A program made the position numbers and the translations under genes. 36,387 bases of DNA from Nitrososphaeria archaeon (GTDB taxonomy: Archaea; Thermoproteota; Nitrososphaeria; Nitrososphaerales; Nitrosopumilaceae), in the NCBI GenBank assembly GCA_010028495.1, contig RHCX01000006.1, positions 1 to 36,387 of the forward strand, read 5' to 3'. The notes below the pieces were generated by a model that was not told the DNA's origin, did not search any database, and saw only the letters and a list, made by a program, of their open reading frames with translations. Below are positions 1,298-7,569 of this stretch, in pieces; within the stretch, counting starts at the first letter, position 1, and the number at the start of each line of letters is the position of its first letter.

Positions 1298-2105
1298 TTA
1301 TAAGAAAATAGTACCACCTCTTGATGATACAGTAAGCAAAAGTTATGGTCTTTTTGATTGGCAAAGTTTCTTTTCAAATGTTTTCTATTCAAATAATCAA
1401 CGAATAAAACAAACAGGATATAATAACAACCAAGTAGCGTTTCTACGAGGATACGTAGTTTCACACATATCTCAAGATTTAGGTGACTTTGCTGAAGCAT
1501 TAAGAGAATCTGATAACGTAAAACTAAGAACAAAAACAGGCTCTATGTTTGCGTGGATATTTGCACTCGCAAATGAATTAGAAGAAGATTTAGAGGACAT
1601 AATTTACGATAAATATCCAGGGTTTTGTCCATACTGTGGTCATAAGTATCATTGTCAATGCGCGTGGTGGCTTCCATCTCAAATTAAGAAAGGTAAAGAT
1701 AGAATTCACACAAAACCAATTGAAGATAATGAAAGTCCTCACACAAAACCAAACCAACTTTCTGGCTGGATCACGACTTGGGAATTAATTTATGGAAAAA
1801 AATACAAAATTGCAATGACTGTTGCTGATATAATGTACAAACTTCTCGAAGAAGAGGCTGAAATTTTAGAGGAGCTTGATAAAGCTAAAGGAGGCCAATT
1901 GAATAGAGACGAACCATACTATAAAAAATTAACAAGAGAGGTAGCTGATTTTGTATCTTGGTATTTCGCATTACTCTACAAACTTCAGCAAGATCTTCCA
2001 CCGGATCAATTATCAAAAATACTATATGAAAAATTTAAGGATGGTTGTCCGTGGTGTAAAGAACAAATCTGCAAATGTTATCCGAAATGGCTTGAAGAAA
2101 GTTAG
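1290..2105 (+). CDS. Tandem MazG-like nucleotide pyrophosphohydrolase with two Cys clusters
   Basis: TTG start overlaps the previous stop. Two all-alpha NTP-PPase-like repeats (DLGDFAEALRE...FAWIFALANELEEDLEDIIYDKYPGFCPYCGHKYHCQC and EEEAEILEELDKA...EVADFVSWYFALLYKLQQDLPPDQLSKILYEKFKDGCPWCKEQICKC). Confidence 0.75.
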   Translation: MISYKKIVPPLDDTVSKSYGLFDWQSFFSNVFYSNNQRIKQTGYNNNQVAFLRGYVVSHISQDLGDFAEALRESDNVKLRTKTGSMFAWIFALANELEEDLEDIIYDKYPGFCPYCGHKYHCQCAWWLPSQIKKGKDRIHTKPIEDNESPHTKPNQLSGWITTWELIYGKKYKIAMTVADIMYKLLEEEAEILEELDKAKGGQLNRDEPYYKKLTREVADFVSWYFALLYKLQQDLPPDQLSKILYEKFKDGCPWCKEQICKCYPKWLEES

Positions 2106-2568
2106 AGGAAAACTGTATCTTCATAGATCTGCGATACAGGAATTAGATGAAAACTTACAATCACAATTTGAAGAAGCTTCTGTGTTACTTCCTAATGAAT
2201 TTGAATGGAATATACTTCGTTTTGATTTAAAATCATACCAAATCTCATTTTTAAAATATGCTGACTTTGAATCAGATCCGCATCCTAGTTTAATTGATTC
2301 AATTACGACGCATGTGGCGACAAGAAGAATAAAACATTGGTTTGCCTCATCAATCAATCCTCCAATATTACATAGAAAAGAAACTTTCATTATGAACAAT
2401 GATCCAAATTTCTATAGGTTTCATCGTTTAACACTACAAGAAGAAGAAGCTGGATTATTAGATCCAAGAATATCACACAAGATTGGTTTCAAAAAACAAT
2501 GGGAAGAATTACTAGAAAGTAAAAATCTTCAGATTATTAATCATCAGCTAGTGCCCCCTGTAAACTAA
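2092..2568 (+). CDS. Stand-alone protein matching the C-terminal region of DNA phosphorothioation-associated putative methyltransferases
   Basis: Motifs KLYLHRSAIQEL, SFLKYADFESDPHPSL, NPPILHRKETFI...FYRFHRLTLQEEEAGLLD recall the C-terminal half of the Dnd-associated methyltransferase family (TIGR04096-like). TTG at 2092 overlaps the MazG-like stop; the listed ORF start at 1951 is likely too early. Confidence 0.65.
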   Translation: MKKVRGKLYLHRSAIQELDENLQSQFEEASVLLPNEFEWNILRFDLKSYQISFLKYADFESDPHPSLIDSITTHVATRRIKHWFASSINPPILHRKETFIMNNDPNFYRFHRLTLQEEEAGLLDPRISHKIGFKKQWEELLESKNLQIINHQLVPPVN

Positions 2569-3101
2569 TGAATTTCTCTCATAAAACAGCCATTCATAGG
2601 AATAAACCATCATCTACAGTAAGAATGATCGAAAACTTAGGTTATATCAAAAATCAGGTATTTGACTTTGGTTGTGGTACAGGAAAGGATGTCAACTATC
2701 TGAAATCCAAGGGCTTTACTGTCGAGTGTTGGGATCCTTTCTATTTCAAGGAAAACGAACTATCTAACTTCAAATCTAACTCATTTCAAACTATTCTCTG
2801 CACATACGTTTTGAATGTAATTCATAAGAATGAAAGGATTGATGCTATCAAAAATATTAAAAAATTATTGCATAAAGAAGGAGTTGTATTTTTCACTGTG
2901 AGAACAACACAAGATATTCTAGATAAAGCCAAGAATAATTCTTGGAAAAAAAACCTTGACGGATGGATCACTCAAAAGAAAACCTTCCAAAAAGGATTTA
3001 CCTCCGAAGAGCTAGAATCACTAATACGTGATAATGGATTTAGGAATGTCAAAACAGTCTCAAAGAATCCGCTGATTGTACAAGCATCAGAAACTGAATG
3101 A
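2568..3101 (+). CDS. Class I SAM methyltransferase, N-terminal-type domain of Dnd-associated putative methyltransferase
   Basis: SHKTAIHRNKPSSTVRMIENLGYIKNQVFDFGCGTGKDVNYLKSKGFTVECWDPFY: the characteristic N-terminal tag plus SAM motif I (DFGCGTG). Start overlaps the upstream stop (TAATG). Confidence 0.75.
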   Translation: MNFSHKTAIHRNKPSSTVRMIENLGYIKNQVFDFGCGTGKDVNYLKSKGFTVECWDPFYFKENELSNFKSNSFQTILCTYVLNVIHKNERIDAIKNIKKLLHKEGVVFFTVRTTQDILDKAKNNSWKKNLDGWITQKKTFQKGFTSEELESLIRDNGFRNVKTVSKNPLIVQASETE

Positions 3102-3332: not shown

Positions 3333-3351
3333 ATGCGGCGAACCGCCGCAT
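3333..3351. repeat. Perfect 8-bp GC-rich inverted repeat (ATGCGGCG-AAC-CGCCGCAT)
   Basis: Read directly in an otherwise AT-rich intergenic region. Confidence 0.85.
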
Positions 3352-3381
3352 ACATTGAACTTTTTACCATAGTTCATAGAA

Positions 3382-3660: not shown

Positions 3661-3924
3661 GCTTTAGATGTGATTATGACATATTAGAGAACAATTATGC
3701 AATTCAAAAAAGATCTGTATCCATTTCCCAAGCAAACTGTACCTATTTTGTGCCTAATCCATGAGTAACCCCCCATATCTTGTAAAAATTACAATTTCCT
3801 ATCTGGTGCGTCCGTTTTGAACAACATATTTGATAATAATTCTGGAATCGTACATAATTCAGGTGTTTGAGGTTGTCGCCAACATACAACCATAGTTGAC
3901 CTTAAGCCTTGGATGCCTGTTTCT

Positions 3925-4878
3925 TTAGTTTCTGCACTTACAGCCAGGTTCGCCGCAAAGACAATACACCTGAAAAGTAAACACCTTGGTCTTGGATGAA
4001 ATTCCATCTGTCACATCGACATATACCAAAAATGTCTTGATGTCATTGAATTCCTTGCTAATCTCATATGATACAGAATAATTTCCTTCAGAGTCTGTCT
4101 CACCCTTGAACTCCTCCAAAACATTTTCCCCATAATCTTCAACTCGAACAAAGACAGTAGCACCAGGAACATTTCCCTCAAAATTCTCCACATGAATGTC
4201 TAGATCTTGCGTGGATCCGCGCCTTACTGCCTTTTGGCCATGTATTGTAACATCAAGGCCTGGGTCTACCTGAGTAGAATCTACAACATTTACTTCCAGA
4301 ACTTTGTTATTCAGCAAATACTGGATAAAATGCAAAAATTCATTGTCATTGATTTTGCCGGCAGACCAAAGCTTTACCGTGGATTTTATCCATAATGGAA
4401 TCGAAGAATTTTTTTGTACATCAAAGTAATATGATTGCAATTCCATTCCATTATGATATCCAGATACCTCGTAGGTACCAATAGGAGAATCATATTGTAT
4501 TGGTATTGATGTGGAATATGCGCCGCTTTGCAAAACCGGTATAGTATATTGAGTTCGCAGACCATCTGGCCTTGTTACAATTAGTGTAACAGAACTAGTT
4601 TGCCCATAATCGCTTACTCGGCCGTTTATTTTGATAAATGCAGTATCGCCATATTTTGGTAGCTCATATTTTGTCTGCACAGCTCGAATCTTTGGAATTT
4701 GAATAATGTCGCGTTTATTCAGGTCTATTAGGGAGCTAACAAAGGAATCATCGTTTACCTTATCCAATGCCCAAAGTCTGATCTTGCTTTTGATTACGTT
4801 TGGGATTTCTTCTGCGTTTGCTACTTGTACTAGCGATAATACCAGTACAGCAGAAAGCAGCAATCCTAGTTTGTACAA
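3925..4878 (-). CDS. Secreted protein with two IPxxIKSxxxLWxxxKxxDxxF repeats, Ig-like regions and Cys-rich C-terminus
   Basis: N-terminal signal peptide (MYKLGLLLSAVLVLSLVQVANAEE); repeats IPNVIKSKIRLWALDKVNDDSF and IPLWIKSTVKLWSAGKINDNEF; C-terminus YCLCGEPGCKCRN. Confidence 0.75.
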   Translation of the reverse strand: MYKLGLLLSAVLVLSLVQVANAEEIPNVIKSKIRLWALDKVNDDSFVSSLIDLNKRDIIQIPKIRAVQTKYELPKYGDTAFIKINGRVSDYGQTSSVTLIVTRPDGLRTQYTIPVLQSGAYSTSIPIQYDSPIGTYEVSGYHNGMELQSYYFDVQKNSSIPLWIKSTVKLWSAGKINDNEFLHFIQYLLNNKVLEVNVVDSTQVDPGLDVTIHGQKAVRRGSTQDLDIHVENFEGNVPGATVFVRVEDYGENVLEEFKGETDSEGNYSVSYEISKEFNDIKTFLVYVDVTDGISSKTKVFTFQVYCLCGEPGCKCRN

Positions 4879-5511: not shown

Positions 5512-6266
5512 GCCAGCTTGAGAACATCAAGTACTTGATCAAAGCTTTCCTTAGTTCTGTTTTCCTTGTATGTTCGAAGAGAAGAAATGATTTTTTGTTT
5601 TGGTGGAAGCTTGTAAATTCTATTTACCATATTTGCAAGACCAGAGCCAATCAGCATTGCTTGAGATGCAGAGGTGACATTAGATGCTCTTCGTTCAAGG
5701 CTGGCGCTCTCAAAGTCGATCATAGTGATGTTTTTGCCCACGATAACATGCTTGGTTATATTGCTCAACTCCCCGTGGTCAATCCCTGCCTCGTCTAATT
5801 TGTAACAGTCAGTTAATACTTTTTTTATTACGAATTTTAGCTTGGCAGCGCTTCCCCTTCCTTTGAGCTCATCAACCCAGTCATAGATTTTCTTGCCACC
5901 GACAAACTCCATTACGACAAAGTTTTTGCTGCTGGAAATCAGCTTTGGTCCGACTCGCACTTTGTTTGCGGCTGATAACAATACAGTTTCTCCTTTCATA
6001 TCTTTTCTTGGAGAGTCGGTTCTGCGGATTTTTAGTGCAACTTTTTTTGTTCCCTGCTTTGCTAGTACAACAATGCCTGCATAGCCCTTGCCTAAAACAC
6101 AAATCTTGTTAATTGTCATTGGGCCTTCAAATGATACCCCATCGATACGAAGCTGTTTTAGTTCTTTGACTCTGGATTTTATCTGGGCTTTTGTGGCGTG
6201 CGGATAGCCAAGTATTGAAGAATATGGCTCGTTAGCTAGATCATTTACTGGAAAAAATTGTTTCAT
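5508..6266 (-). CDS. Archaeal predicted Ser/Thr protein kinase (COG2112-like)
   Basis: GKGYAGIVVLAKQGTKKVALKIRR, DHGELSNITKHVIV, MIDFESAS match the COG2112-type atypical kinase core. Confidence 0.8.
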   Translation of the reverse strand: MKQFFPVNDLANEPYSSILGYPHATKAQIKSRVKELKQLRIDGVSFEGPMTINKICVLGKGYAGIVVLAKQGTKKVALKIRRTDSPRKDMKGETVLLSAANKVRVGPKLISSSKNFVVMEFVGGKKIYDWVDELKGRGSAAKLKFVIKKVLTDCYKLDEAGIDHGELSNITKHVIVGKNITMIDFESASLERRASNVTSASQAMLIGSGLANMVNRIYKLPPKQKIISSLRTYKENRTKESFDQVLDVLKLA

Positions 6267-7569
6267 CTATTGAGACAAGCTCTTTTGCAGCCTCTTTAAT
6301 GGATTTGTTTTTTATTATATTTCCAGAAGTTATTTTGAATTTTTTTATCTCGGATTTTAGTCCTGCAGGAACGCCAGCTTTTTCTATGTTATTTTGGATT
6401 AGCTTGCGCAAAAACTGCACAGCATCTGTGTTTTGCCTTTTTTGTAAAGAGCAGACCTTTCCGTCGTCGTTGATCCAAATGGTGAGGGATTTTTTCTTGT
6501 TTGCTGCAATGAATTTTTCTACATGATCTGCGACAAAAAACTCTGGACCAATTCTTTCCTGCAAGTCATCTAATCTAGTTGATTGCAGTAAAAATAGACA
6601 CGCAGCTGTATTGTCTTCGGTGATGGCAGATGATCTTTTGAGCACGAAAAACCCGGCCTGGTTCATCTGAGTTGCCAAAGATGTAGTTGTGCGTTTTATC
6701 TGTCCCCAGATGATATCCGGGCTTCGTTGTTTGTACTTGAATGATATTATCAAGACGTTTTTGATGTTCATTTTGGATTTTCTCTTTCTTGATGCAAATA
6801 ACGAAACAGAAGGCTTTCTCAGAAATGCTCTTGATGCCAAGACAAATCTACCAATGTTTTCTATAGATATTGCAGCTCCGAGATTTCTGTTTTGGTCTAT
6901 TGGATCAATGATTACTATTTTGGTGTCAAATGATTTTGTGGTATTTCCTATCACTTGACCTGGTTTTAGCTCAGAGATTGCTTTGAGAACATTTTCAAAT
7001 GATCCAAAGTTCAGAACCAACACTTCAGCTACATACCCGGAGAATCCCTGTTTGGCAATTTCAGCTCCATAGATCTCATTTGCCTTGAGAAACGCCTTGA
7101 GTAGTCTTACCTCATTTTTCATAGTATCTGTTAATGATTTTATCATGAATTTTGTGTGAAACGGAGAACGATCTGCGGAGCTCTTCCAGGAACCTTCCTG
7201 AACATCATAACAAGGAACAACATTGACCTTGGTGTCTTTGATTTGGGCCTCGACGAAGGGATGTTCCGCATATCTGACATATGGCTTGAAATCCTTGAGT
7301 GAGGCAAATCCTATTTTTTTACCAAGCTCGACAAATTCTTTTTCTGGAGTGTCAACGTGGAATTTTACAAAAATATCAATATCTGCTTTTTTTGGAAGCC
7401 AGGTTCCCTTGGCATATGATCCGACCACTTCAATTCCTGTTACCTGAGAATAGCCTGATGCCTGTTTTTGTACTAGATTTACTGCTTGTTCTACGATGGC
7501 ACTCTTTTGTTTCTGTACTAAATCAGATGGTATGGTGTATTTTGATGCCTTTTGCAATATCTGGTTCAT
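6241..7569 (-). CDS. cca: Archaeal CCA-adding tRNA nucleotidyltransferase
   Basis: EVVGSYAKGTWLPKKADIDIFVKF (nucleotidyltransferase motif), archaeal class I CCA enzyme layout, 442 aa. Confidence 0.93.
   Translation of the reverse strand: MNQILQKASKYTIPSDLVQKQKSAIVEQAVNLVQKQASGYSQVTGIEVVGSYAKGTWLPKKADIDIFVKFHVDTPEKEFVELGKKIGFASLKDFKPYVRYAEHPFVEAQIKDTKVNVVPCYDVQEGSWKSSADRSPFHTKFMIKSLTDTMKNEVRLLKAFLKANEIYGAEIAKQGFSGYVAEVLVLNFGSFENVLKAISELKPGQVIGNTTKSFDTKIVIIDPIDQNRNLGAAISIENIGRFVLASRAFLRKPSVSLFASRKRKSKMNIKNVLIISFKYKQRSPDIIWGQIKRTTTSLATQMNQAGFFVLKRSSAITEDNTAACLFLLQSTRLDDLQERIGPEFFVADHVEKFIAANKKKSLTIWINDDGKVCSLQKRQNTDAVQFLRKLIQNNIEKAGVPAGLKSEIKKFKITSGNIIKNKSIKEAAKELVSIDETIFSSK

Follow-up and report, generated by a model that had tools for sequence, protein, structure and literature searches.

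The left-end operon and its methyltransferase pair

At the left end of the window, by which we mean the whole stretch of 36,387 nucleotides analysed, five genes lie on the forward strand, each overlapping the next. The first (positions 1–405) is cut by the contig end and carries an HxHIH motif, HIT-like by eye. It appears similar to a phage protein family (PHROG 23000, E 3.7e-8) and has one weak relative on a viral contig; the phage search gave no match. The second gene (383–1297, 304 aa) matched nothing in any library used, including the plasmid and phage searches. The third (1290–2105, 271 aa), MazG-like by eye only, gave no significant match in Pfam, NCBIfam, PHROG or the plasmid search and only weak phmmer matches. 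Its two halves resemble each other, and both terminate in a cysteine-rich CPxC motif (CPYC/CPWC). Both the second and the third gene are absent from 150 relatives.

The fourth gene (2092–2568) encodes the motif series YLHRSA...DPHPSL...PPILHRKETF and is called the module gene below. Its product has 158 aa when started from the TTG at 2092 and 175 aa from an in-frame ATG at 2041; either start is possible. In the profile search its reading frame (2092–2565) matched positions 325–476 of TIGR04096 (dnd_rel_methyl), a 478-position model of DNA phosphorothioation-associated putative methyltransferases, with 94.6 bits (E 5.6e-27), as the first-pass annotation had anticipated in calling it a C-terminal-type module. 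The fifth gene (2568–3101, 177 aa) encodes a methyltransferase (MTase), and its reading frame (2568–3098) matched positions 5–148 of the same model (90.9 bits, E 7.5e-26). Both scores lie below the curated cut-off of 150 bits. Moreover, model positions 149–324 have no counterpart, and the two matched ends lie on separate proteins. The archaeal ORFs are therefore homologous parts of TIGR04096 and not formal members.

The 177-aa protein qualifies as a class I SAM methyltransferase by its glycine-rich SAM loop (FDFGCGTGKD) and its Pfam Methyltransf_23 domain (PF13489; 54.4 bits against a cut-off of 27). The catalytic motif of DNA amino-methyltransferases is [DNS]PP[YFW]. Reading of the 177-aa sequence revealed no such motif, and by this mark the protein does not classify as a DNA amino-methyltransferase. 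PADLOC reported mad2 alone, a weak partial match to the MTase (E 0.0055). At 3337–3357, 3′ of the MTase gene, lies a GC-rich hairpin-like sequence (tgcggcgaaccgccgca), possibly a terminator or a repeat.

The module has no Pfam family in the Pfam search and no sequence relative of solved structure. Its AF2 model, built from an alignment from which rows of plasmid or phage records had been left out, reached a pLDDT of 95.7 and a pTM of 0.88, so the module is confidently predicted to fold independently. A fold search of the PDB with this model gave no match, and a search of viral models gave one (E 8.9e-8), to a segment of an unnamed viral protein 1232 residues long. Residues invariant or nearly so in the alignment include Y9, H11, F59, P65, H94, K96 and W137, which is compatible with a binding or catalytic site.

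An archaeal CCA-adding enzyme at 6241–7569 (362.8 bits against a cut-off of 281.3) indicates that the window is archaeal. The leftmost operon is AT-rich and lineage-specific; its GC content is 0.32–0.34, compared with 0.38–0.43 over most of the window. Alignment to relatives starts only at 3710–3934, which places the pair outside the syntenic part, and a survey of 400 genomes from the order turned up the module in one. Lateral acquisition of the pair is likely, and its source was probably a virus or a mobile element.

The junction between module and methyltransferase

The first-pass annotation described the enzyme as split into two proteins, and both ORFs are indeed present, overlapping, and each matched to a separate part of TIGR04096. 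The two genes share one base in a TAATG (2566–2570), with the stop codon at 2566–2568 and the start codon at 2568–2570. The split could nevertheless be an artefact in which the assembly lost one base, for example from the run of five Cs at 2554–2558, and broke a fused module-MTase of about 335 aa. One added base at that run brings both ORFs into a single open frame, the domains would then be spaced by about 8 residues, within the 4–35 spanned by fused proteins, and module-MTase fusions that lack the remaining regions do exist (e.g. 345 aa in phage L177). Against this, an ATG of its own opens the MTase ORF a few residues ahead of the conserved HKTAI, near the start used by short-form members; all junctions in the archaeal operon are overlaps; the C run is merely five bases long; and phages commonly have module and MTase as separate pairs. 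We therefore regard a single broken gene as unlikely. Even as a frameshifted single gene, the archaeal order would differ from the MTase-first order of TIGR04096.

Family architecture and ancestry of the pair

The family layout given in the first-pass annotation, with the MTase N-terminal and the module C-terminal, holds for the TIGR04096 model and for short forms, but long forms carry the module at both ends. Many bacterial members of 650–880 aa combine a module, the MTase, a middle region and a second module in one chain. Plasmid proteins annotated as members of the TIGR04096 family (649–704 aa) each start with a YLHRSA...ILHRKE module followed by the MTase and the middle region. A second, more or less diverged terminal module was found by BLAST in two of three plasmid proteins, and the profile still reaches that region in the third. 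The 80 nearest genome loci show mainly two layouts: one is module-MTase-middle-module, and the other, present in Nostocales and some further groups, is MTase-middle-module. In Verrucomicrobiota, the three members above the cut-off are all long forms. As a separate observation, a MAG labelled Akkermansia encodes a 412-aa module-MTase protein without middle region or second module (L083:5893-7128), the stop codon of which lies near the contig end. Since TIGR04096 begins at the MTase, an N-terminal module matches the end of the profile.

The module tree groups the archaeal module with the N-terminal copies and with free-standing modules (SH-aLRT 99), apart from the C-terminal copies and the short-form module. 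Likewise, the archaeal module shares 40% identity with the N-terminal copy of a Pseudanabaena long form and 31% with its C-terminal copy. As long forms start with a module and the tree unites the archaeal module with their N-terminal copies, the archaeal pair is the long form's N-terminal half, present as two genes. Its order is collinear with that half, the middle region and the second module being missing.

In the MTase tree the archaeal protein is placed close to phage MTases and not within the fused bacterial clade, and branches are long. It is divergent and its position is unstable. The archaeal pair might preserve an ancestral state with separate genes, the bacterial fused family being derived from it, rather than result from a later fission. 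In favour of this, the module takes a basal position in the bacterial clade, with the MTase just outside it, and phages have free-standing pairs. However, both archaeal proteins sit on long branches, the AU test (p 0.28) does not reject an MTase placed at the margin of the fused clade, and on the trees fused forms are interspersed with separate ones, which indicates frequent fusion and fission. An ancestral state thus seems doubtful to us.

Still less probable is that the two ORFs are nonfunctional pieces of a decayed long-form gene left in a genomic island. Decay of the dnd_rel_methyl family does occur in this lineage: the remains of a module in a related genome (G239) are interrupted by six in-frame stops, and genes for DUF4007, a large ATPase and a PAPS-reductase protein lie on the same contig. 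Both archaeal ORFs, however, are intact with conserved residues kept and clean ends, and downstream of them the middle region and second module were untraceable at E 0.01 to 1e-3. Finally, the proposal of a permuted gene order, in which a C-terminal-type module was relocated ahead of the methyltransferase, agrees with the MTase-first order of the TIGR04096 model and the short forms, but is very improbable and was rejected on the modules at both ends of long forms and on the trees that place the archaeal module with the N-terminal copies.

A putative two-subunit enzyme and its relatives

The pair recurs in viruses. The 485-kb phage LR745208 and one further contig (L017) encode module and MTase as separate genes in the archaeal order. 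We collected 44 module-bearing viral contigs, 41 from a scan with diverged phage modules plus L006, L007 and L017, and read up to 4 kb on each side of the module for an MTase. An MTase was present in 29 of the 44 contigs and on the same strand in all 29, figures that include near-copies and hence fewer independent cases, and that come from an MTase profile to which four of the same loci had contributed. The background of this profile amounted to 6 stray matches in 871 kb of bacterial loci outside the family protein. Sixteen of the 29 pairs are fused, eight in each order; the other 13 are separate and at most 1.7 kb apart, with the module first in ten and the MTase first in three. L144 has a TAA stop, then AAGGAG and a further ATG, which shows that separate genes are real there. 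No MTase was detected alongside the module in the remaining 15 contigs, indicating that the module also works without one. Viral scans with the archaeal module, the MTase and the 304-aa gene gave no confirmed match.

Phages commonly carry class I MTases. Very large proteins of Pelagibacter and Rhodobacteraceae phages (L010, L011, L012) contain an MTase domain with 26–36% identity to the archaeal MTase, and a module was undetectable in them.

Taken together, we consider it rather likely that the two ORFs together make up a single modular SAM-dependent methyltransferase, its two subunits being encoded by a tightly coupled gene pair that a virus or mobile element probably supplied. The product of 2092–2568 would be a recognition or helper module and that of 2568–3101 the catalytic Rossmann domain. 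Occurrence of two domains both fused and adjacent is a usual genomic sign of physical partnership. Since fused as well as separate versions of the pair recur, a heteromeric enzyme is a fair inference, in which the two proteins would bind each other. The module may recognise or present a nucleic-acid-like substrate while the other subunit would transfer the methyl group from SAM, possibly in phage-host conflict. The model of a natural fused N-terminal half with both domains (pLDDT 92, pTM 0.67) is consistent with two separate domains, and its pTM gives no sign of a fixed arrangement between them. Also speaking against the two-subunit reading are the frequency of class I MTases in phages, the divergence and unstable placement of the archaeal MTase, and the 15 viral contigs with a lone module.

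Fusion partners of the module give a hint, and only a hint, of a nucleic-acid substrate, perhaps tRNA. GNAT domains are fused to it in phages L166 and L020, and a 480-aa phage protein (L145:905-2344) combines a module, a ParB-like nuclease domain and an MTase. Four viral contigs (L154, L156, L160, L163) also encode tRNA nucleotidyltransferases of the CCA-adding type (Pfam PolyA_pol, PolyA_pol_RNAbd, HD) to which the module is joined at the N-terminus. More tentatively, module and MTase may form a widespread unnamed two-part phage enzyme, in which the module, with a new fold, would be the subunit that recognises nucleic acid (perhaps tRNA) and would be shared with the CCA-adding, GNAT and ParB-like partners; the Dnd- and BREX-associated fusions and the archaeal pair would then be cellular captures for phage-host conflict.

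The association with Dnd put forward in the first-pass annotation is unsupported in this genome. DndC and DUF4007 were not found in it, the genome being 93% complete and its contig beginning at window position 1, so that Dnd-type partners could be missed; the same search gave a signal in G239, the positive control. Most likely the pair acts independently of phosphorothioation here. The contig of the related archaeal genome mentioned above (L103, G239:C14) carries DUF4007, a 1130-aa ATPase and a PAPS-reductase protein together with the decayed dnd_rel_methyl remnant (394–783). In the literature, a gene set of DUF4007, ATPase and PAPS-reductase is described as Type-4 BREX or Ssp-like (PMC12839542). 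The TIGR04096 family itself is hardly mentioned in the open-text literature searched, and the excerpted text of a Dnd reappraisal (PMC10853773) does not treat it.

With this pair, a family that owes its name to DNA phosphorothioation is uncoupled from that setting, and the C-terminal region of TIGR04096 is shown to be a portable domain without a solved relative. Two small, separately expressible subunits offer a handle for finding the substrate of the family, and the recurrence of the two-part unit in many phages, fused or split, suggests a general two-part enzyme.

Compared with known systems, the archaeal pair resembles TIGR04096 proteins in that both domains are homologous and their order is that of the N-terminal half of long members. 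It differs from them in being two genes without the middle region or the second module, and in lying in an archaeal genome without detected DndC or DUF4007. The free-standing phage pairs (LR745208, L017, L144, L174 and others) are like it in having separate adjacent genes on the same strand, usually module first, but the archaeal module sits in the clade of PPILHRKE type, and most phage modules in another, diverged one of IWHHKW type. With the polyvalent proteins of phages and conjugative elements (PMC5512222) the likeness lies in some very large phage proteins found here (L020, L151), which join MTase, GNAT and module; in contrast, the archaeal proteins are small and single-domain, with no sign of virion packaging.
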